From Zingiber officinale (Eukaryota; Streptophyta; Magnoliopsida; Zingiberales; Zingiberaceae): a stretch of DNA of 64,000 nucleotides. Under the pieces are notes generated by a model. That model ran no database searches, was not told the DNA's origin, and worked only from the letters and a program-made list of their open reading frames with translations. The translations under genes were made by a program, and so were the position numbers. Below, one piece after another: positions 4,073 to 53,769 of this stretch. The stretch lies in NCBI RefSeq assembly GCF_018446385.1, contig NC_056005.1, forward strand, positions 92,594,984 to 92,658,983, written 5' to 3'. Positions within the stretch are counted from its first letter, which is position 1. Each line of letters begins with the position of its first letter.

Positions 4073-4077
4073 CGGCG

Positions 4078-4526
4078 CTCACTTGGCTACCAGGATTCAT
4101 AAACTCTAGTACTTAAGCCTAGAGGTCTAGAGTTCAAATCCTGGGGAAGGCAAAAATCCACTGGCCAGGGGTGGAAAGACCTAGTGAGTAACGACACGGC
4201 CAAAGGGTCGACGGTCGATGACATTAGAGGTCTCCAAATGGACCACCAAATGGGCCGAAGGGCCGGGTCGTTATAATAAAAAGGCGTCTTTTTATTTTAA
4301 CGACCCGACCCTTTGGCCTCTTGGGCAGCCCTTGCGGCAACCCACTGGCGGCCCTTATGTCGTCGGCCCATTTGGCGACCTCTATGTCGTCGACAGACGA
4401 CCCTTGGTCATGCCGTTACTCACTAGGACTTTCCACCCCTGGCAGTGGGTTTTTTCTTTCCCCAGGATTCGAACTCTAGACCTCTAGGCTAAGTAGTAGA
4501 GTTTATGAATCCTGATAGCCAAGTGA
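4078..4526. repeat. Palindromic unit 3
   Basis: Centre near 4282. The left arm lacks part of the GC-rich block present in the others. The junction to its left reads GTGAGCGGCGCTCAC, itself a short palindrome. Confidence 0.85.
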
Positions 4527-4945
4527 GCGACGCTCAAAAATCCACTACCAGGGGTGGAAAGTCCTAATGAGTAACGACACGACCAAGGGTCGTCGGTCGA
4601 CGACATAGAGGTCGCCAAATGGGCCGACGACATAAGGGTCGCCAGTGGGTCGCCGCATGGGCCACCCAAGAGGCAAAAGGGTCGGGTCTCACTTGGCTAC
4701 CAGGATTTATAAACTCTAGTACTTAAGCTTGGAGGTCTAGAGTTCGAATCCTGGGGAAGGCAAAAATCCATTGCCAGGGGTGGAAAGTCCTAGTGAGTAA
4801 CGGCATGACCAAAGAGTCGTCGGTAGATGACATGAGAGGTCACCAAATGGGACGACGACATAAGGGCCGCCAGTGGGCCACCGCAAGGGCCGCCAGTGGG
4901 CCGCCGCAAGGGCCGCCCAAGAGGCCAAAGGGCCGGGTCATTACA

Positions 4946-4954
4946 AAAAAGGCG
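4946..4954 (+). other. Polypurine tract of gag-only element 0
   Basis: AAGGCGGAGAT directly precedes the 3' LTR start. The sister element on the - strand has AAAAAGGGGGAGAT at the same place. Confidence 0.55.
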
Positions 4955-27733: not shown

Positions 27734-28330
27734 TTGTTACAGCTGGGAGCAGCCGAAATCAGTGCAGGAGATCCGCAGTCCTTGGGACTGGCAGGATATT
27801 ACAGACCTTTCGTCGAGGGTTTCTCCTGCATAGCTATGTCATTGACACGCCTGACCAGGAAAGGCGTGAAGTTCACGTGGTCCGAGGATTGCGAGACCAA
27901 CTTTCAGGAGTTGAAGCGGAGATTAGTGTCGACTCCAGTTTTAGTTTTACCTTCTAGAGAGGACGGATTCGTGCTCTATACCGACGCGTCTATTCAGGGT
28001 TTGGGCGCTGTTCTGATGCAGCACAGCAGGGTAGTCTCCTATGCTTCTCGACAGTTGAAGGAGCATGAGAAGAACTACCCAGTTCATGACCTGGAGTTAG
28101 CTGCCATCATCTTCGCTCTGAAGCTTTGGCGGCATCATTTATACGACATTACATTTGAGATTCTCACTGATCATAAGAGTCTCAAATATTTTCACCCAGA
28201 AGGAACTTAATCTCCGACAGAAGAGATGGATGGAGTTCCTGAAGGATTATGATTGTACCATTAGCTATCACCCGGGGAAAGCTAATGTGGTTGTCGATGC
28301 ACTCAGCAGGAAGTCCAGAGGGACTTTGGC
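27734..28330 (+). pseudogene. Gypsy 2: end of reverse transcriptase and RNase H
   Basis: The homology begins at [15 protein letters not shown], the RT thumb/connection, then [18 protein letters not shown]. RNase H follows: [49 protein letters not shown] and VDALSRKS. A one-base shift occurs near 28190 (FHPEGT against [13 protein letters not shown]). Confidence 0.88.
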
Positions 28331-29981: not shown

Positions 29982-32900
29982 TGTAAAATACCGGAAAAAG
30001 GCAGATAATAATAAGGGGAATTTTCTGGAATTTGTAGAAATTTTTTGGGAATTTTTTGAAACTCGTATGGACGAGTTTACGGGGATAAAAAAACAGGGCC
30101 TGGGAAAGCCTGTTTAGGTTACTCATTTAAGCGAGGAAAAGTTTATTTTTCTTTTCCTTTTTCTAATTCTTTTTCTTTTTTCTTCTTTGTTTCTCTTGCC
30201 AAGCCCGTGCCTTAAGCCTCACGACACCTCCTTCTTGCGCCGAGCCTCTTCTCTCGCGCCCGACGCCGGCCCTAATCGCACGAGGCGGTTTCTTCTCCCC
30301 TCTTTCCTTCTTCTTCCCGCACTCGACCCCTTTTCCCCTCCCTCATGCCCTAATCTCTGCTCTACTGCCGCACACCTACCTTTCCTCTTCCACTCCTCCG
30401 AGCGACGACGCTGATCGCCGGCACACGAGCACCGTTCGCTTTTCTCTTGTCTCTGCCCGACAGCGTAGCCGAGCGCCGGCCACCAGGTCCAGTACCAGTC
30501 GCCTGTGCCCTAGCGCCGTCGCCGCACGAGACAGCGTCGACCTTCTCCACACCGAGCCCTAGTTTCCTGAGGTCGATTTCTTCCTCTCTGCCGAGGATTT
30601 CGTCGTTGTTGTCCACTGCGGACTCACACCCGATCACCGCCGATTCCACACCACCGCTGATCGCTACCTGTCCCCTTCATTCGGCCCAACCCTAGTTTTT
30701 TTTTTTCATTGGTGCCCTAGATCCGATCTGCCCATCTCCGGCTACTCAGGTCAGTGACTCCACCTGGGTTTTATTTTCAGCAGCTTCATGGGCTGTGAGG
30801 CTACAAATGAATGTTCGGATGTGGTGTTGATGTGGGTTCGATTTGCCTACTCAGTTTCGGTGATACTGTTCACCATCTATTCGGAGCATCAGTTGTTATC
30901 ACCGGTTGTACACTATCTCCGATTGTAGGACACTAGCGATCGCCTTGAAGGTTAGTGAGTATTGGCTTAAATTGTGTTGTTAAACATATATGGAATTGAG
31001 GTAAGTGTAGGGATTTGATACGTGTTGTGGATAATGGATTGATTTAGGTATGATTTGATTACATGATCGTGTGTAGGTTTGAATTAGAGGTTGTAATTAG
31101 TTATCGAGTGTGAATTATGTTTATATTTGTGTGTTGATTAGGGTTTTTGCCCTAATTTAGTGTTAAAGATTTTATTTAGCTATTTATTGGAATTTAGCTA
31201 AATAAAATATACACATTGATTGGTACAGGACTCTGATTCAAGACGAGTATCTCGACGTTAGATTGGACTTTTCGATTTGGAGGCTGGTACTTTAAGTTTA
31301 TGTCATTTGATTTGCATAGTAATGTTTTTAACAAATAACAATGATTGTGTTTCTTATTTGCTTCGGTTGATCACTACCCGATCTGTTACATGCTTGTTTG
31401 TTTATTTGTTATGCACATCATGTTAGTACTTATCTGATTATACATGCTTATAGGGGTAGTGACACAATCATGTTATTTATTATATTCAGGACCTAGGATT
31501 TTTGATACCATATCTGATCTGTGTACCTTTGATTTGGTTCATTGTCCTATGGTACACATTTTATATTTATATATGGATATTGCTATGCTGTTCAGGATAT
31601 TGTCATGTTTAGTGTCATGCATCATCTCGCATGATTGCATGCTGTGCGATAGTCTGCTCCATTATTATCGAGCACATCGCCAGTTACATGTATCTGTACA
31701 CACCACCACTCATGGGTTATTGGTATATCAGACAGGTGTGTGACAGTTCTGCTGTTTGGCTCCGTTGGTCTGGTGACTCAGCGTGGTAGCCGGCAGACGG
31801 TTCTGCTCTGTTTGACTCCGCTGATTTAGTGTAGTAGCGTGGTAGTCGGCAGGCGATTGGACTCTGTTTGGCTCCGTTGGTTCGCTCATGGGTAGTGTGA
31901 CGCAGCGTGGTAGCTGGCAGAGATTCCTCCCAGTCATCGTGTACCGGGAGATGAGAGCATTGAGCTCCCCCATTTATAATTTGGGGTAGGAGGATAGGTG
32001 TACTCTGATAGCATCCCGTCCACTCGGTCACTCATTAGGAGCAGTGATGGCAGAGTGCATGGTTGTCACAACCCTACCCACTCGGTCTCACCATTGTGTG
32101 TGACATGTCATCGTGTACCGGGAGATGAGAGCATTGAGCTCCCCCATTTATAATTTGGGGTAGGAGGATAGGTGTACTCTGATAGCATCCCGTCCACTCG
32201 GTCACTCATTAGGAGCAGTGATGGCAGAGTGCATGGTTGTCACAACCCTACCCACTCGGTCTCACCATTGTGTGTGACATGGCTGACTGGCGTCAGGGGT
32301 GACCATGACATTTGCATCATATACATGATGCGTTTATTACTTATGTTTGCTGCATTTACTTGCTGCATTTATATGGATGCATATGATTGACATACATACA
32401 AGATTTATGACACTCTCGGTTTGACGACCTGTTGTACTTATACCCTGGTCCTGGTTAGTACGATTTCTCCTGCTTATTTCAGTTGCATTTATCCTTCTTG
32501 TATCAGGAGACTGTACGCATGATTATTGATGGTTGTTATTTTCTTTATTATGCATATTAGTTGTTACCCACTGAGTGTTGGACTCACACCGTCCTCCGTT
32601 GCTATTTTCAGGTTGATGTTGTCCGGAGAGTTCCAGTCGCTAGTCCCCTGCAGTCCACGAGGACGTGTGTTGATCTTTTAGTTTTCTTGTTTAGACTATG
32701 TTTAGACTTGTTCTGTTTTGATATATTGGATCTTGTATGGATTCTTATTTGTCGATGGGTTTGGATTGGATGTGTTTTGCTACATGCCTGCCTGGATGGC
32801 AGAAGAGGTAAGTTCGTTGTGATTTGTGCTTTATGAGTGTAGTGGAGTAGGGTATCAGTTTTGAGCTTTATGAGTGTAGTTGAGTAAGGTTGTTTTTGAG

Positions 32901-36838: not shown

Positions 36839-38338
36839 AAATATCTACATTTATGCTAGGTGTATTTATCCATTTAATTTATATTGTAGATAACATGGTG
36901 TGAGGAGACACACAGAAGTTCATGTTATCAGTTCCTTATAAATTATAAATAGTAGCTCACAACCAAGATGGAATGGGACAAACCATTGGAGTGGTTGTGG
37001 TGTAATTTGGTATTAGTTTATCTTAACTAAAAAATTACAGTAGTACACTATGAGTGTATTGAGCAGGACCATTAGAGGTAGTTTCTTTTTATACTGACTA
37101 CATAAAAGAACAAAATCTCTATTATTATGGAAGTGCGTACTCTTAAGCATGATATAATAACAAGAACGTATACTTAATATTTATTTATTTAATTTATCAA
37201 AGGGTGTGATTTAGTTCGTTAAATCAATAGGCCCGATAAGTCGGGAAATGATATTATTTATAAGGCGTGTTGTTGATTATAGAATGAAACTGTGTCCTAG
37301 TAATCTACGTTGATGATGCCCCCTTGAGGAGCTCATAAAGATTATCATGTAAACCCTACAGGTGGACTTAGTCCGACATGACAATAAGGTTGAGTGGTAC
37401 TATTCTGGGAGATAGATATTAATTAAGTGAGTTGTCAGTAACTCATTTAATTAGTGGACATTTGATATCTTAAACAAAGGGAGACTAACACACTCGAGAT
37501 AAGAAGGAGCCTATATTGTAATATGGGATTGGTGCGGTAGTGCAATAATAAATCTTTAGTGGTATGAGTTATTATTGATGAACTCGAGTTGGGTGTTCGA
37601 GGCGAACACGGGAAGCTCAAGCTCATCGGGAGACAAAAACTAATTCCTCCTCTAGGTCCCTATTGTAGCCTCTTATTTATAAAGTCTTATATCCACCTAA
37701 AGCACAACTTCTTACCCATCTTGAAGTGGTTGGCCAAGCCTAGCTTGGAGACCAAGCTAAGGCAGCCAAACCAAACCAAGATGGGAGGTATGTTGTGGTC
37801 GGCCTAACTAGGAGCCCAAGCAAGGGTGATCGACCACATTGAAATTAAGAGCGAGTTTTAAATTTTGAAATATTTCCTATTGTGGGAGCCATGATTTTAA
37901 AAGAGAGTTTAAAAATTTTAAATCTTTCCTTTTATAGCTTTCTACAAAGGATTAAGAGAAAGGTTTTTAATCATTCCTTATTTGTAGTTTAAAAGGAAGA
38001 GATTTTAATTTTTGATAAAACTTCCTTTTTTTGTAATCATCCACATGTTTTAAAAGAGAGATTTTAATTTCTAAAATTTTCCTTTTATAACCAACCATGA
38101 AGGGATTTAAAAGAGGAATTTTTATTTAAAAAATTTTTCTTACCAGAAACAAATAAGGAAGTTTTAATTTCATGTTTAAAACTTTTCTTGTTTGGATCAA
38201 TAGGGGTGGCCAGCCCTGACAAGAAGAAAAGGAAGTTTTAATTTTTATTTTAAAACTTTCCTTTTTAGTCATAGGAAAAAAAAAATAAGGAAGTTTTAAT
38301 TATGTTTAAAACTTTCCTTATTTGACAAGACCAAGGAT

Positions 38339-38346
38339 TATAAAAG
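38339..38346 (+). promoter_or_regulatory. TATA box of copia B LTR
   Basis: A TATAAAAG stretch followed by a purine-rich leader. The same sequence is at 52860-52867 in the 3' LTR. Confidence 0.5.
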
Positions 38347-39259
38347 AGAGGGAGGGTGTGCCTCTTGAAGAAAAGACATCTTTTATTCCTCCTCTCTTAT
38401 TCCTTGTGGCTGACACTTCCTATTCTCCTCTTCTTCTTTGGTGGCTAGCGGCATCGATCTCTTGGAGTTCCTTTGGTGGCTGGATTTTGTTTAAAGAAGA
38501 AGAGGAGAAAGGAGACATTGTTTCCTAGCATCCCTTAGAGATTGGTTGGTGGTCGAAACTCATCATCCTTTGGAGGTTGTTGGTGGTCGAAACTTGGAAG
38601 CAAGAAGAGAAGGCTTGGGTGGATTTCATCTTGGTAGATCGTCGCCCACACGATGTCCAAGAGAAGGAGAGGAATACAATAAAAGATCAAGAGGTCTATA
38701 AGCTACAAAAGGTATAACTAGTTTTTGTTTTCGCATCATGACTAGTTTATCCTTTTGTATAGATCTTGGAAAACCAAACACAAGAGGTTAACGATTTACG
38801 TTATCTTTTTTGTTATCAATTTTATTGTTCGATTTCATGTTTCGATATTGTGTTTCTATTGAGGTCTCTATAGTTAAACCTAGTTTACTGTAAGAATTTA
38901 AATATCCAATTTCTTTGAAAGGCTTTGTCTAGGAAGTGGTGGATGATCTCATATCCAAGAAGGCCTAGTGCCTCACCATGTTTAACCTGGAAGTCGATCT
39001 TTGAAATAGATATTTGATAACTTCTGTAATATGGTTTAACTTAGGAAGATCACATCGGTTAAACTTGGAGTAAAAATGTTAAGTATCGTTTCCAATTCAA
39101 ATTTAACTTCTGAAGGACAATTTGGATTAATAATGTTAAGCATTGTTTGCAATCCAAATTTAACTTCAGTAGAGCACATGGGTAGCTAGGATAGTTCTAT
39201 GCTTGTACAAATTTTTATACAGGGAAACTAGGACAGTATTCCGAGTAGCAACCAACAAT

Positions 39260-39271: not shown

Positions 39272-40293
39272 TAGGCTTAACCTCTGTGTGTTTGGTTTTA
39301 GTTTAATTATGCACATGCCATACATATTTTAGGCAGGATAATAGTAGGATGTGCAAATAGATTAACTCTGTGGTTATAGGCTCCAACTATTATGGCCTAT
39401 TGTGACTGTGTGTGATTGTATTTATTAAATACAGCATGAGCTGTATTAGATTTAGGATTTTATGTACATTCCTTTGTGGAATATAGGATCGATATATATA
39501 AAATTTTATTTTTGTCGCGGATCATATCCTTGCGAGGCGTGGTGCTATTTGAGGACCAGAGGCACAACAGAAAAGGAAGCTCGATGGACGTAACGACATG
39601 AACCCTAGGGCTGGCGGCTAGTTTTGACAACTGCTAGGGCTAGCAGCACATGGAGGATAGTGATGGAAGAGGCCATAATAGTTGGGAAATTATTTTTCCA
39701 TATTTATTCCTTTTATTTCCTATGCTGTGTGTGTGCATGTTAAAATCTTCATCTTAAATAACTAAGTGGGAGAGAGATTTGTAAATAAATTCCACAGTCT
39801 CCATTACTGGTTTGTAAGTGATGCAAATAAACTTGCGTTTTGGCTCTGAGTGCCTTCCTCCATATCAGATGAGTTTGTTTGAGGATCGCTAGATCAAACT
39901 TCCTTTATGGATGATTATAGGAAATTATTTAGGAGCGTGTGATCTTCTCCATCTGAAGGGCACAATCCTATTTAATGGACTAAGTATCAAGTAATGGTAT
40001 ACACTTAAGCGCATTTAATAGTATCCTCCCCATCGGAGTCACTGCTATTATTTGTGTGACCGAAGGAATATCAACTATTAATTTTATTTGTCATAAAGTT
40101 AGGTTAACAAGAATAAAATTAATGGGTAAAACCTCCTTTTACAAATGTTTGAATTAGTATACGTTCACACTATTGTGGCATACAAAATTCACGGTGTTTT
40201 GAGGTGTTGGTGAATTTAAATAATATTATTTGAGGACTCAATATTATTCTAAATTATAAAGTTTTGACTAAAATTTATTTTGTGATTCTTAGG
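39272..40293. other. Copia B 5' leader
   Basis: About 1 kb of non-coding leader lies between the primer site and gag. It has many stops and no recognisable feature. Confidence 0.7.
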
Positions 40294-41140
40294 ATGACTT
40301 TCAACCCACTGGTTATTATTCTGAAAGAGAACAAACTTACTGGTCCCAATTGCATAGATTGGAAAAGAAACCTGGACATTGTCCTAACTGCTAAAGGCTA
40401 TAAGTTTGTACTGTTAGAGGTCTGCCCTGAAGTGCTTAATAGTGATTCTAGTGAAGAGGAGATTGAGTATCATAAGAAATGGGTCAAGGCAGATGAGATG
40501 ACGTGGTGCTACATTTTGGCTTCTATGTCAAATGTGCTGCAACATCAGCATCAATCCATGCCTACTATCTATAATATGATGTACAATCTCAAGAAACTCT
40601 TCGGATACCAGAATCGGGTTGCTAGGCAAGAGGTTATGAGAAACTTAATTGCAACCACCATGTTAGAGGGGACACCCGTAAGGGATAATATCCTCAAAAT
40701 GATGACTTACTTGAACGAGATACAAATCCTTGAAGCTGAAATCGATGGGAAAACCCATGCCGATATTATTCTCTAAACGCTACCCAAAAGTTTTGAGCAG
40801 TTCTGCCTGAACTACAATATGAATAAAAGGATTTATTCATTGGCAGAACTACTGACAGAACTTCAGGCAGCAGAAGGGCTATTTCGTCATAATTCTCAAA
40901 TTCACTTTGCTGAAAATGTTTCTACTTCTAAGTCGAAAGGCAAGAAGAAGAAACAAGCTGGCTCGGCAAAGAAAGTGAATCGATCTCTAGGTACTGGACT
41001 AAAAGTAGGAATAAAGAAGCCGAAGGGCAAGTACTTTATTTGCAAGCAATCTGGATATTGGAAGGCAGACTGTCCTCGTAGGAAAGAGAACAATAAAGGT
41101 ATATCTTATTCTCTAGTAGTTGAAACATGTTTAGCGTTGT
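40294..41140 (+). pseudogene. Copia B gag (one in-frame stop, zinc knuckle mutated)
   Basis: The start is ATG 40294 (MTFNPLVIILKENKLTGPN), chosen because LTGPN begins the conserved gag N-terminus; an in-frame ATG at 40264 adds ten unlikely residues. The copia gag core shows WKRNLDIVLTAKGYKFVL and AEMTWCYIL-like spacing. A TAA at 40774-40776 breaks the frame, which is otherwise open through TLPKSFEQFCLNYNMNK. A lysine-rich linker follows. The zinc knuckle (~41032-41073) reads YFICKQSGYWKADC: the first cysteine and the histidine are both tyrosine. Confidence 0.87.
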
Positions 41141-41619
41141 TATCTACCAGTACTTGGTGTATAGATACAGGAGCCACTAATCATGTCTGCAATTCATTGC
41201 AGGGGTTCCAGGAAACTCGACGACTATATGAGAGAGAGATAACCGTCTACATGGGCAATGATACAAAAGTGGCGGTTGTTGCAGTGGGAGATGTCTACTT
41301 ATCATTTGATAGGAATAGAACTTTGATTTTGAGAAATTGTCTTTATGTACCAAGTTTTAGAAAGAATTTAATTTCAGTTTCTAAACTATTTTTGGATGGA
41401 CATGTTGTTTCTTTTGATGACAAAGTGGTTATCAAGAAAAATAGGGTTATTATCTGTTCTGGTACATTAGTTGATAATTTGTATACTCTAAATCCAACAA
41501 CTCCCACAAAGCAACAAATGAAAATTAATAACACATCCTCTAATTCAAATAAGAGAAAGGAACCTTTGAAAATGAACCAGACATATCTTTGGCATCTAAG
41601 ACTTGGTCATATTAACTTG
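41141..41619 (+). pseudogene. Copia B protease and start of GAG-pre-integrase
   Basis: WCIDTGATNHVCNSLQGF carries the aspartic protease DTG near 41164. FLDGHVVSFDDKVVI follows, then LWHLRLGHINL, the histidine part of the HHCC zinc domain. The frame is the same as gag and is broken at 41620, where the CACTA starts. Confidence 0.88.
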
Positions 41620-41945
41620 CACTACAACAAAAACCCTCATAGACATCGGTTTTCCACCGGTGTCTATTACATTTTCGACCGATGTCTATGAAGCCGATGT
41701 AAAAGGTCAACCATTTTAGACATCGGGTTAAAACCGGTGTAGTATCACTTAACGACACCGGTGTTCGAATCGATTATTAACCGGTGTAGTATGACTTAAC
41801 GACACCATTTCATCAACGGTGTAAAACCGATGTAATATTATATGTTAATAACACCAGTTTTGGCAGCGGTATACGACCGATGTAATATCAGTTAATAACA
41901 CCGGTTTTGCAGCGGTGGAAAACCGATGTAATGTCGGTATTTTTT
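41620..41945. repeat. Left terminal and subterminal repeats of the CACTA
   Basis: The terminal inverted repeat is 41620-41650. Then ~300 bp follow with about eight copies of GACATCGG / CCGATGT / ACCGGTGT motifs in both orientations. Subterminal motif arrays of this sort bind the TNPA-type protein in known CACTA elements. Confidence 0.88.
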
Positions 41946-43031
41946 AACAGCACATTGATTTCCGAAACAATGAATACAGTAACCAAAAAATACACAAATT
42001 ACACAAATATTCTTCATTCAACAATATCCATAAAATACACAAATATTCATAAATTACATAAATAATCTTCTTACAACAGTATCCATAAAATACACAAACA
42101 TTCTTTTTACATCAAAAACTAATAGATATCAGAATCAAGGTAGAACATTCTTTTAACAACACATCAAGGTAGCTAGAACCGCACTTCAAATGTAATCTAG
42201 CATGCATTCAGCCCACTCGAACCGCACTTCATCAATTTCAACTCTGGAGTACTTGAGATTTGTAAACTGTAAAAACACATAAATAATATATTAGTAAAGA
42301 TGTAATTTTGAAAGCTGGAAATGGTAAAGATGCAATTTTGAAAGCTGGAAATGGTAAATATGCAATTTTGATTTATTTATTTTTTTTTCCAAATATCTGC
42401 TCTAGCTCTAACGAGGCCAGTCTAGTTTTTCTGATCTCTATCCTTCTAACACTTCAAATAAGCATTTTGAAAGCTTTTCAGTCTGGTTTTGTAATGAGAA
42501 CTACCAATAAACTAAATTTGGAATGCAAAATATCTAAACCAAAGAAAGTCCCTTTCTAATTGATACTTGCAACAAAGATAATCTACAATACTTTATACAA
42601 AGTTAATTCATGATCAGGATCCAATAATCCACCATATGTCAAATAACTAAAATAAATGTGTACATGTATCAAATAAAATAGAATACTAAGTTTTTAAAGA
42701 CTGCTGTGGAAGACTATTGTTCATAATGCTTAATTCATTGAAGGATAATTGCGCGCATCCGCATACACACCGATACACATATACATATACATATGCATAT
42801 AATATGCAATTTAGAGGCCTACCAAAATGTATAAATGGCAAAGGCCACTGAGCATACATACAAAATTGTGAAAATTTGTCTGACTAGAAACTCCCCAAGT
42901 CAACCTTATTTTTGGAATGTATATGTGAATTCTTCAATGGCAATGGGCACAGCTTTCCTCCTGTTCGGAAATGATAAAACAGAAACTTGGATAGTATCGA
43001 GAAACACTATAGATTGAGATGATAAAAATAC
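41946..43031. other. CACTA interior, unassigned left part
   Basis: AT-rich sequence with a duplicated GATGCAATTTTGAAAGCTGG-like unit near 42298-42370 and an ACATATAC microsatellite near 42770-42800. It might be the 3' flank captured with the EXO1-like fragment. I see no coding sequence. Confidence 0.6.
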
Positions 43032-43251
43032 CTTGCAGAGGAAGAAGAATTTTGAACGTCTTTTAGAGGTGCACGGAGGACACTTGCACGGGCACTTGAT
43101 TGAGTGTATCTGAAAGATGACATGAGCGCTGCAAATCTGTCCATTGATCTCTCCGCTACAGTTGTGTAGTTGTTCACATGTGAAATGTCACAACCGAATT
43201 TTCCTCCCCTTACCATGGCGCCATTGTTGTTCAAACGAGACACTTGATTAT
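43032..43251 (-). pseudogene. EXO1-like C-terminal exon (captured fragment)
   Basis: On - the exon starts after CTCTGCAG at 43252 and ends at CTCTGCAAG|GTATTTTT, so both splice sites are present. The peptide includes GGKFGCDISHVNNYTTVAER, SMDRFAALMSSFRY and LRAPLKDVQN, resembling the C-terminal region of plant exonuclease 1 (a 5'-3' nuclease of mismatch repair and DNA end resection). The catalytic nuclease domain is not in the window. The family call is from memory of the family pattern; the exon structure is seen directly. Confidence 0.65.
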
Positions 43252-43406
43252 CTGCAGAGTACCGGTATTATTAGTTTTATTTAGCATAAACCTTTTGACT
43301 GTGATTACTGTCTCCTTCGCTCGTTATAGAGTATTGCAAGCATAACAACTTTATCATCAACTGATGTGAAGAACATAAACTTGGTTATGAAAGAAGTAGC
43401 TCGAAC

Positions 43407-43690
43407 CTTCTCCATGATGAACTGAAGTCCTTGCATTCTTTGATGGCAGATTTTCCTGATTCATTACTAAGATGGGTGGCTGATTTTCCTTGTCCTCAGA
43501 TAGTTTTCTTTTCTTGACAGGGTAGCCACCAGGAATACAATCGTTATTTTCATTACCATATGTGGCACCATCATTGGGTCGATGGAGACTATTGACATCT
43601 GATGGCTTATGCTTGAAGTATGAGCTTCTCACAATGACTTTTCTGTTTGTAGACATTCTTGTCTCGTCGACCACAGACGTTGCCTGGTGG
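43407..43690 (-). pseudogene. EXO1-like upstream exon (captured fragment)
   Basis: On - the peptide has STNRKVIVRSSYFKHKPSD, then a basic KKRKLSEDKENQPP stretch that could be a nuclear localisation signal. It ends at GGAGAAG|GTTCGAG, a good donor at 43407. The right boundary is uncertain: an acceptor-like TTTACAG lies at about 43760, but an in-frame TAA follows it. Position and orientation fit an exon just before 43032-43251. Confidence 0.6.
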
Positions 43691-43949
43691 GACGTCTTTT
43701 ACTTGTGTGATGTTAAAAATGGCTTACATCTGGAGGAGGGAATCTACGGACCTGTAAAGCCACCTGAAAGCCATGATCTCAGGCAAGTTTAATTATACTT
43801 ACAGCTGAAATCAAAACTAACTTACCATGTATAGTTAGCCTATTTTCGTCCTGTTTCTGGATTGGATTGAGGAACTTATCTTCCATCTGGTAAAAAACAA
43901 AGAGTTATACCGATTTTTTTGTTGAGAGAGTACTAAAGGAGCTCAAACA

Positions 43950-44153
43950 TTATATCGTTTCCATTGCTGGTTCTGTAACATGACCTTCAGGACCAGAGCC
44001 ATCCTTGTCATCTTGATCAACTGGACTGCTTTGAGTACTGCTCATATAACAAGTAGCATCTTTTGCTGAAGGAGGTGGTCCAGAGCTACAAGTTCCAGAG
44101 CTTGGAGAAGATGAATCTGGTGTTACCAGATCTTTCTGCATGACTTTCAACAA
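43950..44153 (-). pseudogene. Unassigned exon-like open stretch
   Basis: On - an open frame begins near ATGCAG|AAAGATCTGG, an acceptor-like site, and encodes a Ser/Pro-rich peptide with KDLVTPDSSSPSSGTCSSGP and QSSPVDQDDKDGSGPEGHV. It might be an earlier exon of the EXO1-like gene because order and orientation agree, but I do not recognise it. A 25-bp piece of it (44046-44070) is repeated exactly at 45748-45772. Confidence 0.4.
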
Positions 44154-45305
44154 AGGTAAGAAGAGAAGCCAAAAAAACTTATGAAAGACACTGGATCATA
44201 TCCAAGAGGTCATTCCATCAATTATTAAAGTCCAAGCCATCATGTCCTTCAGGAATTCCCAACAAGTACATGTGTATATTATCAATTCATACAGAAAACA
44301 CATAAAAATAAAACATGTTCTGTACACTTTCAACAGAATATTTTGCATTGTTCAGCTTGAAAATTACCACACTATATCTATAGTTTAATTCAGTGTTCAA
44401 AAGAACAACTTTAATGAATGATTTTAATTATTTGGTTCAAAGTGAAGCAACCCACATGTATGAAGGTTGATTTGCTTTTATTATATTTCTTGATGAAAAT
44501 GATTTAATTCAGTTGTATTAAGAGGTCTTGTTCAAATTGTACTACAACCAGTTACAACTAAAAGAAATATTTCTTAGGTGATTTCACTAGCAATCAATTT
44601 TCCGATTCTGAAACTAAGATTAAACCAGGAAAACCCAGCCATCAATTTGCAGCTTCTAAGTATCAAACTTAATGGCATAGAAACAAGGTAAACGTTGACA
44701 AGAAAATTGATTGTGCTAATTATTTCAGATGGATCGCTTAAAAATCAATGTTCACTAAACGAACCTTTTATCCATTAGATTCTTTCATAAGCAAATAAGA
44801 ACTTAAATAAATAAATCATAAAATAAAATTTAAGAACCATCAAAATGATAAAGATCTTAAAGAAGATGTCGTATGGCATTCATCCATGAGACAGGGAATT
44901 TATCACATTCTCCAAACAAAAAAATTATAATTAGCGTGAGAAAATATAAAACAGAAAGTGTAGGATGACATAAATGAACAGGAAATTCCCAATTTCTCTT
45001 GCTATTCCGACTGCCTTCAAGAGTTAACACACCAATTGCTTGTAAAAGTTAATTTTCATAAATTGCAAATTGGTTGAACGCCAGTCACCATGAGCAAGAC
45101 ACAACATTGAGTTGGTCAAATACACACCAGATGATGGTAATATTGAAGTTGGAATTAACATCAACGTGGCTTGAAGTGTTGACTTAGAACAATGAGCAAT
45201 CTTGTAACGTCTTCGCAATGCATATATTAGAAACTAAATTCAAAATCCCTCTATATAATTAGGAAAGATTATTAACAATTTCATCATTGTCAAATATAAA
45301 GGCAC
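44154..45305. other. CACTA interior, intron-like and unassigned
   Basis: Mostly AT-rich sequence. An open stretch on - at 45218-45024 (YKIAHCSKSTLQATLML) has no ATG and matches nothing I recognise. No gene is called. Confidence 0.5.
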
Positions 45306-45459
45306 CTTTTTTCCTGGCCTCACAAGGCACAAGGCAACTTCTACTGCTGTATTGGCAGCAGCAATCACATCTGCTGCTCTACCAGTCACTGGTCCTTCTT
45401 GTATAACATGAGTGTGTGCCACCACAGTAATAAACCCATCAATATGACAGCCCATGTCA
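45306..45459 (-). pseudogene. EBP1/PA2G4-like exon (captured fragment)
   Basis: On - a 154-bp exon runs from CTGTGTTGCAG|TGACATGGG to AAAAAAG|GTGCC, both consensus splice sites. It encodes DMGCHIDGFITVVAHTHVIQ, EGPVTGRAADVIAAANTAVE and VALCLVRPGKK. This matches the methionine-aminopeptidase-like fold of the EBP1/PA2G4 growth regulator family, which binds RNA and ribosomes and controls organ growth in plants. Relative to the family pattern an extra residue appears at QEGP. The following exon of the parent gene is not found. Confidence 0.82.
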
Positions 45460-45546
45460 CTGCAACACAGAGAAGATATTGTCAAAAAACCTCAAAAGAA
45501 TTAAATCGTAGAGAGTCACAAAACAATCTAGATAATTAACATATAC

Positions 45547-45618
45547 ATTTTAACGATGTCATTTTCTTCCAGTACATTCTCGTCATTGCCAAGCTTAGCT
45601 TGAAATAACGGAATACAA
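45547..45618 (-). pseudogene. EBP1/PA2G4-like preceding exon (partial)
   Basis: On - the stretch NDENVLEENDIVK ends at a donor-like AAAAT|GTATATG, and joins in sense to the next exon's DMGCHIDGF. Upstream residues (CIPLFQAKLG) diverge from the family pattern, and the right boundary is unclear. It was probably truncated at capture. Confidence 0.65.
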
Positions 45619-45747
45619 GCATGATAGAGTGCCAAGGGCCCCCACAGATCTGTCCATATGGCTTGAAATAAAGAGAAATAACCACTTAAATTAGAGGGAT
45701 CAAACAAATTTATGAAGATAAAAAAATAACACAAATCCATCGATTGA

Positions 45748-45794
45748 ATAACAAGTAGCATCTTTTGCTGAATAACAAGTAGCATTTTTTGGTT
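45748..45794. repeat. Filler repeat copied from 44046-44070
   Basis: Bases 45748-45772 equal 44046-44070 exactly, and part of the unit is repeated in tandem immediately after (to 45794). Such short templated copies are typical of error-prone end joining. Confidence 0.75.
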
Positions 45795-46301
45795 ACTGTC
45801 GGTGTTAATAGTACTACTACTGTCAGGGACTTTTGTCAGTTTTTGTAATTTTAGACGAGTCGGCATCGATTGAATGTCAGCTTCAACATCATCCATCTCG
45901 CACTAACCCAATCCTAACTCGGCCAAAGTGCAACGCCCCTCAACCAAACTCAGCAGACTCATAAGGCACTTCGACTCGACTGTGATCGCCTTAGGCAAAC
46001 TAAACATGTCAAAACTCAGTTTCGAATGAACTCAAACCTCTTGTACTCATCCAATCCAAATAAGAGCTCACATTGTCATCAAATCCTATAGGTAGGATTT
46101 TGTATACGTAGCACAACAAGCACTATTACTCAACATTAAATCATGTATAGGTATGTGCTCAAATACTCAGCATTAACAATTGAGCTCAAACACTCAGCAT
46201 TAAATCCATAAAACCACCACATTTTAAAGCAGTAAACTTATGTTTACAGAGTGCTATTACAACTTGCTAAGTTGTTAGTAACGGGGCCAGCAACAGCATA
46301 C
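45795..46301. other. CACTA interior, unassigned
   Basis: An open - stretch near 45896-45810 (MDDVEADIQSMPTRLKLQKL) is not recognised. The rest (45900-46300) is non-coding. Confidence 0.5.
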
Positions 46302-46422
46302 CTTGTTTATATTGTCCATCATTATTCCTTTAACCTTAGTTATATGAGCTTTTAGCTTTGAAAGTTTGCTCATTTCCTCTGGATGATTTATACAATACTT
46401 CATATGCTCCTTCAGCCTTGGA
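46302..46422 (-). pseudogene. VAMP72-type R-SNARE exon (captured fragment)
   Basis: On - a 121-bp exon lies between CTTTTTACAG at 46423 and AACAAG|GTATGC. It encodes [38 protein letters not shown]. This is the linker and first half of the SNARE helix of plant VAMP72 proteins (longin-type vesicle R-SNAREs for secretion and cell-plate fusion). The HPEE, KVKG and MM-NI spacing is characteristic. The longin domain, the second half of the SNARE motif and the membrane anchor are absent here. Confidence 0.82.
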
Positions 46423-46489
46423 CTGTAAAAAGCAGTCACATGTTAAAGTATGACCAAACAACTACAACTAAACTAACAAACTGTAAAAT

Positions 46490-47002
46490 CCCACTTAGTA
46501 TCAGAAGAGAAGTGAAATCATCCCACAAAGAGTTCTTCCCTTCCTTAAAAACTCCAGACCTGGAAGAAGCTAAAATTGTTCCCCAACTTTGCATATCTGA
46601 TATGGTCGAATGAGTAAAATTGGTGTCACACAAATGGCTAAATTTAATGTGCCAACATTGAAGAGAGACAGCAACACCGGCCGAGTTAATGCTGCACAAA
46701 CTTCACTTGCTAGTCTTTTAGGATCCTGAAACCTCCTTGCAAAGGATCCTGAAACCTCCTTGCAAATACATCTGCAACTCGCGACAGCTTACTCAGGCCG
46801 ACGACACGCCCTCCGGATGGCACATAGCCAACATGGCACTTGATGCTAAATGGAAGCAAGCAAGACTCACAGTAGGAAAACAAGTTGATGTCGTGAACAA
46901 CCACTAGCCCACCAACCCCTCTTGCATGGCTGACTCCCGGATTCAGTCCAGCTTCTGGAAATAAGGCACCCTGCACAATGTCTTTCGCCTTTTGTTTGTA
47001 CC
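46490..47002 (-). pseudogene. GTP cyclohydrolase I second exon (captured, frameshifted)
   Basis: On - it begins after TCTGTAATAG at 47003 with GYKQKAKDIVQGALFPEAGL. It continues GGVGGLVVVHDINLFSYCES, CLLPFSIKCHVGYVPSG and GLSKLSRVADVFARRFQDP, the hallmark core of plant GTP cyclohydrolase I, the first enzyme of folate pterin synthesis. A 23-bp tandem duplication (46721-46743, 46744-46766) then shifts the frame. Homology resumes in other frames as SAGVAVSLQCWHIKF and SRSGVFKEGKNSLWDDF. It cannot encode a working enzyme. Confidence 0.9.
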
Positions 47003-47566
47003 CTATTACAGAAAAGATTGGCTCAAATGAAGAAATTGATTGAACTATGCCATACACCAATACAAGCCACTAGTTCCTTACAGATCTTTTTGTGCATTCG
47101 TAATTCAGTAATTTGTAACACAAGTAACAGAGCAAATTGTAGGATAAGAATGCTGATAAAATGGATTTTATTCTCGGGTATGAATTGAAGTTTTTGATTT
47201 GGATAGTGAATCCAAATAACACAAGTTCTGAAGATTTCTTTACCAAGCAGAGAGAAGCAGAACATTCCTTATCTAAAGTGGAATAGAAAAACTACTCAGC
47301 TTTGTCTTATGATGTCAACATAGCATACTACTAACTACTTATCCTTGTAAAGAAAGCATTTTGGTTGCTAACAACTACACAACAATCTACTCACCAAATA
47401 AAGGATATTGGGAAAGCGATGGCAGATATCTAAAGCGAGTGGTTATGTTTTCTAAACTAAAGAAACGGAAGATGACCGACAGATCGTGTGAAATGCAAAA
47501 GGATGGAAAAAAAAAGAGGGGGGACCAACGGAGTAGCAGCAGATTTACAATAAAACGATCGCAAAC

Positions 47567-47747
47567 CTTTGGTTCCTCGTCGGAAGGCCTCGGCCACGCG
47601 ATGCGGCGTCCTCCGGAGGCCTTCTCGCTCGTGATTCTCTCCGAGGCCCTGCAGCAGCGCCTTGACGGTCTCCTCGATCGAGAGCGCGCACTTGGCATCC
47701 AACGCCAGCGGATCCGTCACCTCCTCCTCCTCCCCCCAGTCGCACAA
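47567..47747 (-). pseudogene. GTP cyclohydrolase I first exon (captured, no ATG)
   Basis: On - the frame encodes DPLALDAKCALSIEETVKAL, LQGLGENHEREGLRRTPHRV and AEAFRRGTK, ending at ACCAAAG|GTTTGCG, a consensus donor that joins in phase with the exon at 47002. The frame is open from at least 47747, but the first plausible start codon there is TTG, not ATG, so the initiator was lost or not captured. Upstream on -, 47748-48330 is GC-rich and may be captured 5' flanking DNA. Confidence 0.88.
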
Positions 47748-48400
47748 TGAGCGGGCGAGCGAGCAAATAAAGAAATCAAACCCTATTCACTGACAACAGC
47801 GAACAACACAATCTGCTCTCCTTCTTCCTCGTCGGCTGCTGCCTTCGCCGCCACCACCGCTGCCAGCGTTGGGCTCCGCTTTTCTGGTCTCCTCCGTGAC
47901 GAGATGTCGAGATCCTCGAAAAAAAGAAGATCGAAAACTTGGAATTTGATGGAGAGGGAGAGAGAGGAAAGAGGGCAGCGGTGAGGTTACTGCAAACTCA
48001 GAATTTAGAAATAAAAGACATGATTTGATCGTCTTCATCGGATCGGTGGAACTTAGTATCACCTTTCCCCTTAGTCATCTTCATCTTGCCTCCCTCCACC
48101 GCTACTATTCTGAAACCCTAGAAAACAAGACCAACTCGTCACCTCTCCTTTCTCGAAATACGAAGAAGGGTTCCTCTTCTTACCCAAAGGAAGGAGGTGG
48201 AGGAGATGCATCGTGAGTCAATCTTGATCGGGAGAGGAAGAGGCGTCGATCTAAGAAGGGGAAGAGGAAGATGAAGCTGAGAGAGATATGGTTGGACGGC
48301 CTGCGGCGAGGAGGAAAGTGGTGGCGTCACGACCGTATACGGCGCGATATAGGTTTAGGTTTGGAGTATTGGGGGGAAAATAAATTATTTTATTTTATCA
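47748..48400. other. CACTA interior, GC-rich, unassigned
   Basis: The region contains purine-rich and GGCGGCGG-type sequence with several unconvincing short frames on both strands. It lies directly upstream of the GTP cyclohydrolase fragment and could be its leader/promoter region. Confidence 0.5.
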
Positions 48401-48617
48401 TAGACACCGGGTTTTAAAAACCGCTGTTAAAATCGATGTCTATTAACGAAAAAAGGTGCTCATAGACATCGGCTTAAAAAACCGATGTCTATGAACGAAA
48501 ATCTGCGCTCATAGACACCGATTTTTGGAAAAATCGGTGTAAAATACTCAAAGACATCGGTTTTTGCTTAAAACCGTTGTTGTTCCACCGATGTCTATGA
48601 GAGTTTTTGTTGTAGTG
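48401..48617. repeat. Right subterminal and terminal repeats of the CACTA
   Basis: CATAGACAYCGG...ACCGATGTC motifs occur at least six times before the terminal inverted repeat at 48587-48617. Confidence 0.88.
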
Positions 48618-48620
48618 TTG

Positions 48621-49575
48621 AGTAGGATTCAAAGGCTTATAGCCGATGGACTCTTGGGTTCATTAGTGTTGGAAAACTTTCCAACCTACGAATCTTGCTT
48701 GGAAGGAAAAATGACCAAGAGACCTTATAAGGCTAAGGGGTATAAAGCAAAAAATGTATTGGAATTGGTTCATTCTGATTTGTGTGGACCTATGACTATC
48801 CAGGCGAGAGGTGGTTTCGAATATTTTGTCTCTTTTATAGATAATTATTCGAGATATGGATACATTTACTTGATGCACCGCAAGTCTGAGTGCTTTGATA
48901 AGTTCAAAGAGCACAAGGCTGATGTGGAGAAATGCCATGGCAAAATTATCAAGAAACTACGGTATGATCGTGGTGGCGAGTACCTCTCAGGAGAGTTTAG
49001 GAATTACTTATCAGAGATTGGGATTCAATCCCAATTGTCTGCACCTGGTACACCCCCAACAGAATGGTGTGGCAGAACGAAGGAATAAGACTCTTATGGA
49101 AATGGTTAGATCGATGATGAGTTATTCAGAATTACCAAATTCGTTCTGGGGATATGCTTTAGAAACGGCAGTGTACATTCTGAACTTGGTACCTTCTAAA
49201 TTAGTACCCTATACTCGCACGGAATTATGGAATGGGCGTAAGCCTAGTCTGAGTCATGCCCGAATTTGGGGTAGTCTAGCACATGTGCTGAAGGGAGATG
49301 CTGATAAGTTGGAATCTCGTACAGAAGTTCGTCTATTTATAGGTTATCCTAAAGGAATAAAAGGTGGTTTGTTTTATAGTTCTAAAGATCAGAAGGTCAT
49401 TGTTAGCACTAATGCCCGATTTTTAGAAGAGGACTATGTAATAAATCACAAGCCCATGAGTGAAATTGTTCTAAAAGAAATGAGAGAGGACACGCTTACT
49501 TTAGTACGAACATTGCAAGATGAATATCACAAGAAACTGCAACATGTATCACAACTGATACACAACTACAGATAG
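48621..49575 (+). pseudogene. Copia B integrase (one frameshift)
   Basis: After the TSD the zinc-domain frame resumes: LSRIQRLIADGLLGSL, CESC-like YESCLEGKMTKR. The core has LVHSDLCGPM, RYDRGGEYLSGEF and AERRNKTLMEMVRSMM, holding D, D and E. One extra C in CACCCCCAACAG near 49055 shifts the frame between SAPGTP and the NGVAERR motif. The tail is IWGSLAHVLKGDADKLESRT and VRLFIGYPKG. A stop ends this part at 49573-49575. Confidence 0.88.
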
Positions 49576-50870
49576 TGCCTCGTCGTAGTGGGAGGGTTGT
49601 GAGGCAACCTGGAAGATTCATATTTTTAGGAGAGTCTTCGGACCTGATCCCAGGTAAACATGAACCTGATCCCCGAACATATGACGAAGCACTCCAAAAT
49701 AAAGATGCAACCATCAAATAGTAGAAATAAAGAAGCACTCCAAAATGAATTCAGAAATAAAATCTATGTATTCTAACAAAGTCTGGGAGCTAGTAGAACC
49801 ATCAAATAGTGTAAAAATTATTGGATGTAAATGGATCTACAAAAGGAAAAAAGGGACAGACGGGAAGGTGGAAACCTTCAAAGCAAGGCTTGTTGCAAAG
49901 GGGTATACTCAGAAAGAGAGAATCGATTATGAGGAAACCTTTTTGCCAGTAGCTATGCTTAAGTCTATCTGGATACTTTTATCTATTGCTGCTCATATGG
50001 ATTATGAGATTTGGCAAATGGATATCAAGACAGCTTTCCTTAACGGAAGTGTTGAAGAAAACATCCATATGAAGCAACCCAGAGGGGTTTATTGAAAAGG
50101 GCAAAGAACATCTTGTATGTAAGCTCAATCAGTCTATTTATGGACTGAAGCAAGCTTCAAGGTCTTGGAACATTCGGTTTAATGAAGTAATCCAGTCTTA
50201 TGGATTTATTCAGTATCCGGATGAGTCTTGTGTATACAAGAAGTGTGATGGAAACGTGGTGGTATTTCTTGTACTATACGCAGATGACATTTTGTTAGTT
50301 GGAAAAATATCAAAGTGTTGTCGGAAGTAAGGGTATGGTTGTTCAAGCAATTTGATATGAAGGACTTGGGAGAATGCACACATATTCTCGGGATCAAAGT
50401 AAAAAGGGATCGCAAGAAAAGAATGTTGTGTTTATCCCAAGCTTCATATATTGATACTATCCTAGCTCGTTTTAACATGCAAGACTCTAAGAAAGGTTTT
50501 CTACCTTTTCGACATGGAGTATCTTTATCTAAAGAGATGTCTCCGAAGACATCAAAAGAGATAGAAGAAATGAAGGCAGCTCCTTATGCTTTAGCTGTAG
50601 GAAGCCTAATGTATGGTATGTTATGCACGAGATCAGATATTTATTTTTCCATGGGCATGGTTAGCAGATATCAAAGTAATCCAGGAAAGGGACATTGGAC
50701 TGCCGTAAAGCATATATTAAAGTTCCCGAGAAGGACTAGAGATTATATGCTGGTTTACCAAGCAGATGATTTGCTCCCTGTGGGTTACACAGATTCTGAC
50801 TTCCAATTAGATAGGGGCAATAGTAAGTCTACATCAGGCTATGTGTTTAGTTTAGGAGGTGGAGCCATAG
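49576..50870 (+). pseudogene. Copia B reverse transcriptase (two frameshifts)
   Basis: From 49745: KWIYKRKKGTDGKVETFKAR, LVAKGYTQKERIDYEETF, MDIKTAFLNGSVEENIHMKQ. A single extra G near 50085 shifts the frame. SIYGLKQASRSW and LYADDILLVG (catalytic YADD, ~50274-50294) follow. A second shift occurs near 50300, then FDMKDLGECTHILGIKVKRD and GSLMYGMLCTRSDI. A TAG at 50873 replaces the usual tryptophan in AIAWKS. Confidence 0.88.
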
Positions 50871-51278
50871 CATAGAAGAGTGTTAAGCAGAAATGCGTTT
50901 CAGACTCAACCATGGAAGCTGAGTATGTGGCAACCTCTGAGGCAGCCAAGGAAGCTGTATGGCTCAGGAACTTTTTGATGGACTTAGATGTGATTTCTGG
51001 TTTACCCAAAATCATCACAATTTATTGTGATAATAGCGGTGCAGTAGCAACTCGAAGGAACCACGAGCCCATAAGGCGAGTAAACACATTGGGCGTAAGT
51101 ACCACCTGATACGAGACATTGTAAAGCGAGGAGAAGTTGTTGTCACCAAGATTGCATCAGCAGATAACCTGGCAGATCCTTTCACTAAGGCCCTTTCAGC
51201 GAAAGCTTTTGATCGACATGTTGAGTGGATGAGAATCAGATGTATGGTAGCGTTTAAGGCAACATAGTCTTTTAGTAT
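50871..51278 (+). pseudogene. Copia B RNase H
   Basis: STMEAEYVATSEAAKEAVWL and IYCDNSGAVA contain RNase H acidic residues. A shift after 51100 separates KYHLIRDIV and SADNLADPFTKALS. The polypurine tract AAGTGGGAGA at about 51279-51288 follows directly. Confidence 0.87.
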
Positions 51279-51289: not shown

Positions 51290-53769
51290 TGTTAGAATGT
51301 ATACTAAAAGTCTAGCTTTCTGTAAACATTTATTATGAAATAAGAATCACATTGATCAAATATCTACATTTATGCTAAGTGTAGTTATCCATTTAATTTA
51401 TATTGTAGATAACATGATGTGAGGAGACACACAGAAGTTCATATTATCAGTTCCTTATAAATTATAAATAGTAGCTCACAACCAAGATGGAATGGGACAA
51501 ACCATTGGAGTGGTTGTAGTGTAATTTGGTATTAGTTTATCTTGACTATAAAATTACAGTAGTACACTATGAGTGTATTGAGCAGGACCATTAAAGGTAG
51601 TTTCTTTTTATACTGACTACACAAAAGAGCAAAACCTCTGTTATTATGGAAGTGTGTACTCTTAATCATGATATAATAACAAGCACGTATACTTAATATT
51701 TATTTCTTTAATTTATCAAAGGGTGCGATTTAGTTCGTTAAATCAATAGGCCCGATAAGTTGGGAAATGATATTATTTATAAGGTGTGTTGTTGATTATA
51801 GAATGAAACTGTGTCCTACTAATCTAGATTGATGATGTCCCCTTGAGGAGCTCATAAAGATTGTCATGTAAACCCTGCAGGTGGACTTAGTCCGACATGA
51901 CAATAAGGTTGAGTGGTACTACTCTTGGAGATAGATATTAATTAAGTGAGTTGTCAGTAACTCATTTAATTAGTGGGCATTTGATATCTTAAACACAGGA
52001 AGACTAACATACTCATGATAAGAAGGAGCTCATATTGTAATATGGGATTGGTGCAGAAGTGCAATAATAACTCTTTAGTTGTATGAGTTATTATTGATGA
52101 ACTCGAGTTGGGTGTTCAGGGCAAACACGGGAAGCTCAAGCTCATCGGGAGATCAAAACCAATTCCTCCTCTAGGCCCCTACTGTAACCTCTTATTTATA
52201 AAGTCTTATATCCACCTAAAGCATAATTTCTTACCCATCTTGAAGTGGCCGGCCAAGCCTAGCTTTGAGACCAAGCTAGGGTCGTCCAAACCAAACCAAG
52301 ATGGGAGGTATGTTGTGGCTGGCCTAGCTTAGAGCCCAAGCAAGGGTGGCTGACCACATTGAAATTAAGAGGGAGTTTTAAATTTTTGAAAACTTTCCTA
52401 TTGTGGGAGTCATGATTTTAAAAGAGAGTTTTAAAAATTTTAAATCTTTCTTTTTATAACTTTCTACAAAGGATTAAGAGAAAGATTTTTAGTCTTTCCT
52501 TATTTGTAGTTTAAAAGGAAGAGATTTTAATTTTTGATAAAACTTTTCTTTTTTGTAATCATCCACATGTTTTAAAAAATAGATTTTAATTTCTAAAATT
52601 TTCCTTTTATAACCAACCATGAAGGGATTTAAAAGAGGAATTTTTATTTTAAAAATTTTTCTTACCGGAAACAAATAAGGAAGTTTTAATTTCATGTTTA
52701 AAACTTTCCTTGTTTGGATCAATAGGGGCGATCGGCCATGACAAGAAGAAAAGAAAGTTTTAATTTTTGTTTTAAAACTTTCCTTTTTAGTCATAGGCAA
52801 AGAAAATAAGAAAGTTTTAATTATGTTTAAAACTTTCCTTATTTGGCAAGACCAAGGATTATAAAAGAGAGGGAGGGTGTGCCTCTTGAAGAAAAGACAT
52901 CTTCTATTCCTCCTCTCTTATTCCTTGTGGACGACACTTCTTATTCTCCTTCTCTTCTTCTTTGGTGGTCGGCGGCATCAATCTCTTGGAGTTCCTTTGG
53001 TGGCCGGATTTTGCTTAAAGAAGAAGAGGAGAAAGGAGGCATTGTTTCCTAGCATCCCTTGGAGATTGGTTGGTGGCCAAAATTCATCATCATTTGGAGG
53101 TTGTTGGTGGCCGAAACTTGGAAGCAAGACGAGAAGGCTTGGGTGGATTTTATCTTGGTAGATCGTTGCCCACACAACGTCCAAGAGAAGGAGAGGAATA
53201 CAATAGAAGATCAAAAGGTCTATAAGATACAAAAGGTATAACTAGTTTTTGTTTCCGCATCATGACTAGTTCATCCTTTTGTATAGATCTTGGAAAACCA
53301 AACACAAGAGGTTAACGATTTTAGGTTATCGATTTTATTGTTCGATTTCATGTTTTGATATTGTGTTTCCATTGAGTCTCTATAGTTAAACCTAGTTTAC
53401 TGTAAGAATTTAAATATCCAATTTCTTTGAAAGGCTTTGTCTCGGAAGTGGTGGATGATCTCATACCCAAGAAGGCCTAGTGCCTCGCCATGTTTAACTT
53501 GGAAGCCGATCTTTGAAATAGATATTTGATAACTTCTGTAATTTGGTTTAACTTAGGAAGATCACATCGGTTAAAGTTGGAGTAAAAATGTTAAGTATCG
53601 TTTCCAATCCAAGTTTAACTTCTGAAGGACAATTTGGATTAATAATGTTAAGCATCATTTCCTATCCAAATTTAACTTCAGTAGAGCACATGGGTAGCTA
53701 GGATAGTTCTATGCTTGTATAAATTTTTGTACTGGGGAACTAGGATGGTATTCCGAGTAGCAACCAACA
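51290..53769 (+). repeat. Copia B 3' LTR (2480 bp)
   Basis: It starts TGTTAGAATGTATACTAAAA and ends GAGTAGCAACCAACA. It is uninterrupted and shows the site (AAATA, near 51358-51362) where the solo LTR entered the 5' copy. Confidence 0.93.

Follow-up and report, generated by a model that had tools for sequence, protein, structure and literature searches.

Several plant transposons of the CACTA (En/Spm) superfamily are known to carry fragments of host genes. In soybean, Tgm-Express1, a 5.7-kb CACTA element in the wp allele of F3H, is described as holding five unrelated host-gene fragments in which exons, introns and splice sites were kept (PMC1947982). Pack-CACTA families of Arabidopsis, rice and maize are reported to enclose coding DNA from several loci between CACTA termini and to gain inner pieces (PMC8903248; PMC13317346), and host gene fragments have also been described inside CACTA elements of Chenopodium (PMC8978399). 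Here we analyzed a 64,000-nt stretch of the ginger genome (Zingiber officinale, contig NC_056005.1, positions 92,594,984 to 92,658,983; hereafter the window) that contains a 6,998-bp element of this kind at positions 41620-48617. Between its termini are pieces of four genes: GTP cyclohydrolase I, the SNARE gene VAMP727, EBP1/PA2G4 and the exonuclease gene EXO1.

The element is similar in size to Tgm-Express1 and resembles it in holding fragments of several genes with their introns; host, termini and source genes differ. According to its published description (PMC1947982), Tgm-Express1 lies in a gene and is associated with a phenotype and chimeric transcripts, whereas the ginger copy lies in a retrotransposon. 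The ginger fusion, unlike Tgm-Express1 as described there, recurs with variant cargo. Like the Pack-CACTA families, the ginger element combines CACTA termini with pieces of several loci and appears to belong to a family with added inner pieces, although the target site duplication (TSD) is given as 5 nt for the CACTA set of PMC8903248 and is 3 nt here. The Chenopodium pieces, as reported, are shorter (Neprosin, 80 bp of AP2) and lie upstream of a transposase-associated domain (PMC8978399). The sections on Pack-CACTA in PMC8903248 make no mention of the ginger cargo set, the literature listings returned no report of this four-gene cargo or of a ginger Pack-CACTA, and the word CACTA was not found in the main text of the ginger genome papers checked. 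The Pack-CACTA kind is thus known, while the ginger family and its gene combination appear unreported. The initial annotation had called the combination undescribed, which is consistent with these listings, though the kind itself, Pack-CACTA with Tgm-Express1 as an example, is well described. The locus extends the record to a Pack-CACTA family with four-gene cargo in ginger, and its recurring, varying cargo provides material for testing the stepwise addition of captured pieces.

We consider it very probable that the element is a non-autonomous Pack-CACTA inserted into a copia retrotransposon, with a four-gene cargo taken up stepwise as DNA in one composite that later multiplied, and that this copy is a decayed passenger. 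The following features define its ends.

41617..41619, no strand: target site duplication TTG, left (sequence)
41620..41650, plus strand: left terminal inverted repeat (inverted-repeat search and terminus search)
41643..41929, no strand: left subterminal repeats, ACCGRTGT motif in both orientations (motif count and repeat search)
48398..48594, no strand: right subterminal repeats (motif count and repeat search)
48587..48617, minus strand: right terminal inverted repeat, with a single mismatch to the left one (inverted-repeat search and terminus search)
48618..48620, no strand: target site duplication TTG, right (sequence)

The inverted termini begin CACTACAAC and are 97% complementary over 31 nt. 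A search of the 64-kb window with 26 nt from the start of the terminus, allowing up to three mismatches, hit the two element ends and nothing else; 100 shuffles gave no match. The motif ACCG[AG]TGT has 19 matches in the window, 14 of them inside the element and every one of these near either end (a count made without shuffle control). These subterminal repeats likely represent transposase-accessory binding sites, a putative function. The initial annotation had proposed a complete CACTA of about 7 kb with 31-bp inverted repeats, one mismatch and the TSD TTG; pairing of the ends, terminus search and flanks all agree with it.

It had also seen no transposase, and the Pfam scan of the element in six frames detected no transposase domain (threshold E ≤1 for the three minus frames and one of the plus frames, E ≤0.01 for the remaining two plus frames). 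This result excludes only an autonomous element. The CACTA superfamily includes non-autonomous members without transposase, and a 3-bp TSD is usual for it. The element therefore has the CACTA-type inverted termini, the 3-bp TSD and the subterminal repeat arrays in both orientations of a CACTA (En/Spm) transposon, and it lacks the transposase of autonomous members. With host coding DNA between the termini, mobilised as a unit, it falls into the Pack-CACTA, or Pack-TYPE, group. Two other classes of gene-capturing transposons do not fit. Helitrons have neither inverted termini nor TSD and insert between A and T, whereas this element has both; Pack-MULEs have a TSD of 8-9 bp and Mutator-type termini, in contrast to the 3-bp TSD and CACTA termini seen here.

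The sequences on either side belong to one copia element.

36839..39257, plus strand: 5' long terminal repeat (LTR) of the host copia, approximate ends, followed by TGGTATCAGAGC (repeat comparison)
40264..41619, plus strand: copia gag/pol left of the insertion (Pfam Retrotran_gag_2 4.3e-7 and Pol_BBD 5.4e-20; gag_pre-integrs 2e-4, below cut-off)
48621..50875, plus strand: copia integrase and reverse transcriptase right of the insertion (Pfam rve 5e-11 and SH3_retrovirus 3.7e-16; RVT_2 1.1e-6, below cut-off)
51358..53769, plus strand: 3' LTR of the host copia, approximate ends (repeat comparison)

When 120 bases of each flank are joined through a single TTG, they give an open frame, ...YLWHLRLGHINL-SRIQRLIADGLLGSL..., in which HINL and SRIQRL meet across the TSD. 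The copia frame thus becomes continuous again on removal of the element plus one copy of the TSD, and the 7 kb therefore arrived as one unit. The insertion is younger than the host copia. The two LTRs of the host differ by a Kimura two-parameter (K2P) distance of 0.062 over 2,406 sites. If substitutions accumulate at 1.3e-8 per site and year, the host copia would be about 2.4 million years old, an upper limit for the insertion of the element.

The cargo lies entirely on the minus strand, and its pieces follow one another from right to left in the order GTP cyclohydrolase I, VAMP727, EBP1, EXO1, with introns between exons. P numbers denote ginger protein records from the searches described below; splice sites are given as acceptor/donor.

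47810..48038, minus strand: stretch of the element 5' of GTP cyclohydrolase I, partly 5' exons in gene models P0006, P0127 and P0129 (tblastn)
47567..47738, minus strand: first captured exon of GTP cyclohydrolase I (Pfam, tblastn; donor GT)
46482..47002, minus strand: second captured exon of GTP cyclohydrolase I (Pfam, PDB, tblastn; AG/GT)
46302..46422, minus strand: VAMP727 exon PRLKEHM...DNINK (protein search, tblastn; AG/GT)
45547..45649, minus strand: exon that is EBP1 in its 3' part, from 45593, LGNDENVLEENDIVK (tblastn; AG/GT)
45306..45459, minus strand: EBP1/PA2G4 exon DMGCHIDGF...LVRPGKK (PDB, protein search, tblastn; AG/GT)
43956..44147, minus strand: first captured exon of EXO1, homology from parent residue 390, donor not GT (tblastn)
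43826..43886, minus strand: second captured exon of EXO1, MEDKFLNPIQKQDENRLTIHG (tblastn; AG/GT)
43407..43763, minus strand: third captured exon of EXO1, with two in-frame stops (tblastn; AG/GT)
43032..43251, minus strand: fourth captured exon of EXO1, one residue shorter than the parent (tblastn; AG/GT)
42906..42960, minus strand: last exon of EXO1 including the natural stop codon; its final residues are those of the parent P0004 (tblastn)
42189..42269, minus strand: element sequence not assigned to any coding piece, last exon in gene models P0005, P0008, P0009 and P0127 (tblastn)

The four identities proposed in the initial annotation were borne out, two of them in a narrower form. The GTP cyclohydrolase I piece matches its Pfam family at 2.9e-23 and the PDB at 5.8e-15. 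The SNARE piece, first labelled VAMP72-type, could be refined to VAMP727 by its 93% identity over 41 aa to the ginger protein (P0124). Its profile scores are weak (21.2 bits against a Pfam Synaptobrevin cut-off of 26.4; PDB E 0.02) because a single exon is present. The EBP1/PA2G4-like piece matches PA2G4 in the PDB at 1e-11, is 94% identical to ginger EBP1, and matches both P0014 and P0019. The EXO1-like piece is 93% identical to the ginger exonuclease 1-like protein P0004 over 92% of the searched piece. It is confined to the C-terminal part of the parent (residues 390 to 683; five exons, 44147-42906), without the XPG domains listed for the parent. Among the matches listed, the top ones for the cargo pieces were Zingiber officinale records, and source genes are named in ginger for EXO1, EBP1 and VAMP727; the GTP cyclohydrolase I source gene was not found, no search aimed at it having been made.

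Splice sites in register with gene models read AG at nine of nine acceptors and GT at eight of nine donors. The earlier claim of intact splice sites in several pieces thus stands for every acceptor and fails at one EXO1 donor. Part of these sites are cryptic sites used by gene models rather than exon borders of the source genes. The retention of introns is a sign that DNA was taken up rather than spliced RNA. The sequence at 47810..48038 is possibly a captured 5' untranslated region. Separately, a stretch between VAMP727 and EBP1 (45810-46007) is an exon in model P0009 and possibly a fifth captured piece.

This copy is damaged. The second GTP cyclohydrolase I exon contains a 23-bp tandem duplication (46720-46765) and, relative to other copies, a frame break near 46690. 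In EXO1, the third exon has two stops, the fourth lacks one residue and the donor after the first is not GT. The locus is nevertheless annotated as a gene: five exons spliced from the window reproduce 281 of the 282 residues of ZIOFF_070316 (P0007), the only difference being residue 1 (M, against a TTG codon in the window). P0007 also carries V40 and C45 in EBP1, seen in no other copy compared. Given this near-identity and the private changes, P0007 is the window locus or an allele of it. Its UniRef label is GTP cyclohydrolase 1.

In order to describe the fusion elsewhere, we used the protein searches with the cargo pieces. The EXO1 piece returned six proteins, all from ginger and all compared. 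For EBP1 and VAMP727 the best 120 of 359 and the best 120 of 243 matches were listed; from these, 5 and 10 ginger records, respectively, were taken for the fusion analysis, and the other 112 and 109 proteins served as comparison columns only. Among the matches listed, at least 10 ginger records contain two or more of the four pieces. All four occur in P0005, P0006 and P0009, and three in P0007. P0001-P0003 join EBP1 to EXO1, and P0127, P0129 and P0160 join GTP cyclohydrolase I to VAMP727. P0129 and P0160 are NCBI records named GTP cyclohydrolase 1-like. The pairs P0129/P0005 and P0160/P0009 have equal scaffold lengths and are identical over 155 and 143 consecutive residues, whereas the longest such run in five other pairs compared is 47. 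P0129 is therefore probably a second annotation of the P0005 locus, and P0160 of the P0009 locus. The matches listed would then include about eight fusion loci, counting the one in the window. Part of these may be alleles; a haplotype-resolved ginger assembly has been published (PMC8342452). The fusion records all come from ginger, which is not a measure of breadth across Zingiberaceae.

The similarity between copies extends beyond the coding pieces. In tblastn comparisons, stretches upstream of 47738 are common to P0005, P0006, P0127 and P0129; P0127 matches the element from 42189 to 47918, and P0006 out to 48038. By these protein-level matches, the shared element sequence stops about 570 bp short of the left end and 580-700 bp short of the right end. 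P0001-P0003 start instead with the EBP1 N-terminus, which indicates at least two structural types in the family at the level of gene models. P0006 and P0009 lie on one scaffold with consecutive locus tags, an arrangement that insertion of copies close to one another would produce.

Individual sites were compared between the copies and the source genes. EBP1 position 12 is covered by seven of the eight copies, window locus included (the eighth lacks the site), and reads T in six of them and I in one. Both ginger EBP1 genes have A, as do 104 of the 112 other listed proteins (T in four, V in two, S in two). The absence of the alanine from all seven covering copies fits one capture followed by amplification. 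At VAMP727 position 26 the window has H, as do all 12 ginger chimera or partial records and ginger VAMP727 itself, while the 109 other listed proteins all have Q; the piece therefore comes from the ginger lineage. For EXO1, 270 positions are covered by at least four of the six copies, and nine of them are uniform in the covering copies and unlike the gene.

The history we propose combines these observations with published mechanisms. The transposase of an autonomous relative would move the element in trans, as the termini suggest, by recognising the termini and the subterminal repeats. The cargo would have been taken up stepwise as genomic DNA, most likely when neighbouring copies fused and were remobilised with the DNA between them. 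In the capture model as set out for Pack-CACTA, two nearby copies are mobilised as one, intervening DNA included (PMC8903248; PMC13317346). The variant cargo and the neighbouring copy pair would fit this two-copy model, without proving it. A single ancestral composite would then have multiplied, with variants gaining or losing pieces. The window copy would be a decayed passenger that itself has no coding function and whose reading frames annotation has taken for those of a gene.

Several points weigh against this history. No autonomous CACTA partner was seen, and the mechanism of capture is borrowed from published work. The single orientation of the four fragments could be chance (1 in 8). The other copies were seen as proteins, and identical termini at their loci are presumptive. 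No VAMP727 change is common to all copies relative to the gene, and single capture is therefore not tested by VAMP727. The nine fixed EXO1 differences have no outgroup and hence no direction, and EXO1 identities between copy and gene (88.8-95.6%) overlap those between copies (90.0-97.9%).

The fragments might instead have been joined by a Helitron or a Pack-MULE, and the whole composite taken up later by a CACTA. In favour of this, VAMP727 is also joined to PP2A-B56, diphosphomevalonate decarboxylase (MVD), CBSX and sugar-transporter pieces, so that more than one carrier may have been at work. Against it, the CACTA termini are the sole near-perfect inverted pair spanning the cargo, a comparison that included no specific search for Helitron ends and could miss decayed ones. 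We regard such an origin as improbable.

The records with these partners are of several kinds. P0125 joins PP2A-B56, an MVD piece and VAMP727; P0128 joins PP2A-B56 to VAMP727; and P0140 combines a CBSX piece (PDB 1.4e-14), VAMP727 and a sugar-transporter piece (Pfam 2.9e-5). Synaptobrevin matches of these three are below the Pfam cut-off, and the VAMP727 label rests on the protein search. P0008 links a leucine-rich-repeat piece to the EBP1 exon and the element tail. Each of the four is probably a further case of mosaic transposon cargo taken for a gene. EBP1 and EXO1 are also joined without GTP cyclohydrolase I in gene models. We suggest, tentatively, that ginger might hold a network of carriers trading gene pieces, in which one VAMP727 exon has differing partners per lineage. 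The lineages could conceivably be GTP cyclohydrolase I/EBP1/EXO1, PP2A-B56 with MVD, and CBSX with a sugar transporter, a division we hold with equal reserve. If all mosaics ride related CACTA ends, they would form a traceable record of serial exon capture and exchange, and if such exchange took place, part of the chimeric transcripts could have been retained.

A functional chimeric gene, with transcription starting on the GTP cyclohydrolase I side, splicing through to the EXO1 stop, and a protein or regulatory RNA under selection in at least some copies, would account for the common direction of the pieces and for the last one ending at its gene's natural stop. The AG and GT splice sites in register with the models would also be expected, and predictors do join the pieces in the ten listed records, including the two NCBI GTP cyclohydrolase 1-like ones (P0129, P0160). 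The fragments of Tgm-Express1 are, by the published account, spliced into chimeric transcripts (PMC1947982). However, the EXO1 stops and non-GT donor, together with the GTP cyclohydrolase I duplication and frame break, interrupt this copy. In the GTP cyclohydrolase I piece, SYCESCLLPF aligns with SMCEHHLLPF of PDB chain 1wm9_A, the EXO1 piece is without the parent's XPG domains, and the joined exons vary between models. We regard a functional gene as very unlikely. Finally, an ordinary host locus hit by separate elements, one of the outcomes that the initial annotation had said would overturn it, or an assembly join so hit, can be rejected with near certainty: a gene model is annotated here (P0007) and similar models exist elsewhere, but the copia frame is continuous over the TSD, the termini pair with one mismatch and the fusion recurs on other scaffolds.

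A decayed Pack-CACTA passenger has consequences for annotation. Fragments of transposons stand in public databases under names such as GTP cyclohydrolase 1 or peptidase M24-domain protein of ginger, and gene families are inflated as a result.

The window as a whole is a nest of retrotransposons. It contains three LTR pairs that are 93-95% identical (7137-9546/14355-16725, 22191-25125/29982-33092 and the host copia pair, 36839-39257/51358-53769). Open reading frames inside the first two encode gypsy-type domains and those inside the third copia-type domains. Weak matches of VAMP727 records at 27800-28000 (tblastn E 3.6e-4 to 3e-3) were attributed to chance, the region being a retrotransposon RNase H reading frame, and Pfam matches to ASFV_J13L, Pyr_redox_3, BcrAD_BadFG, LrgA and DUF7801 were below cut-offs and disregarded. 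One LTR contains a perfect 174-bp tandem duplication (31933-32281), and positions 3137-4954 consist of complex direct and inverted repeats with a unit of several hundred bases.

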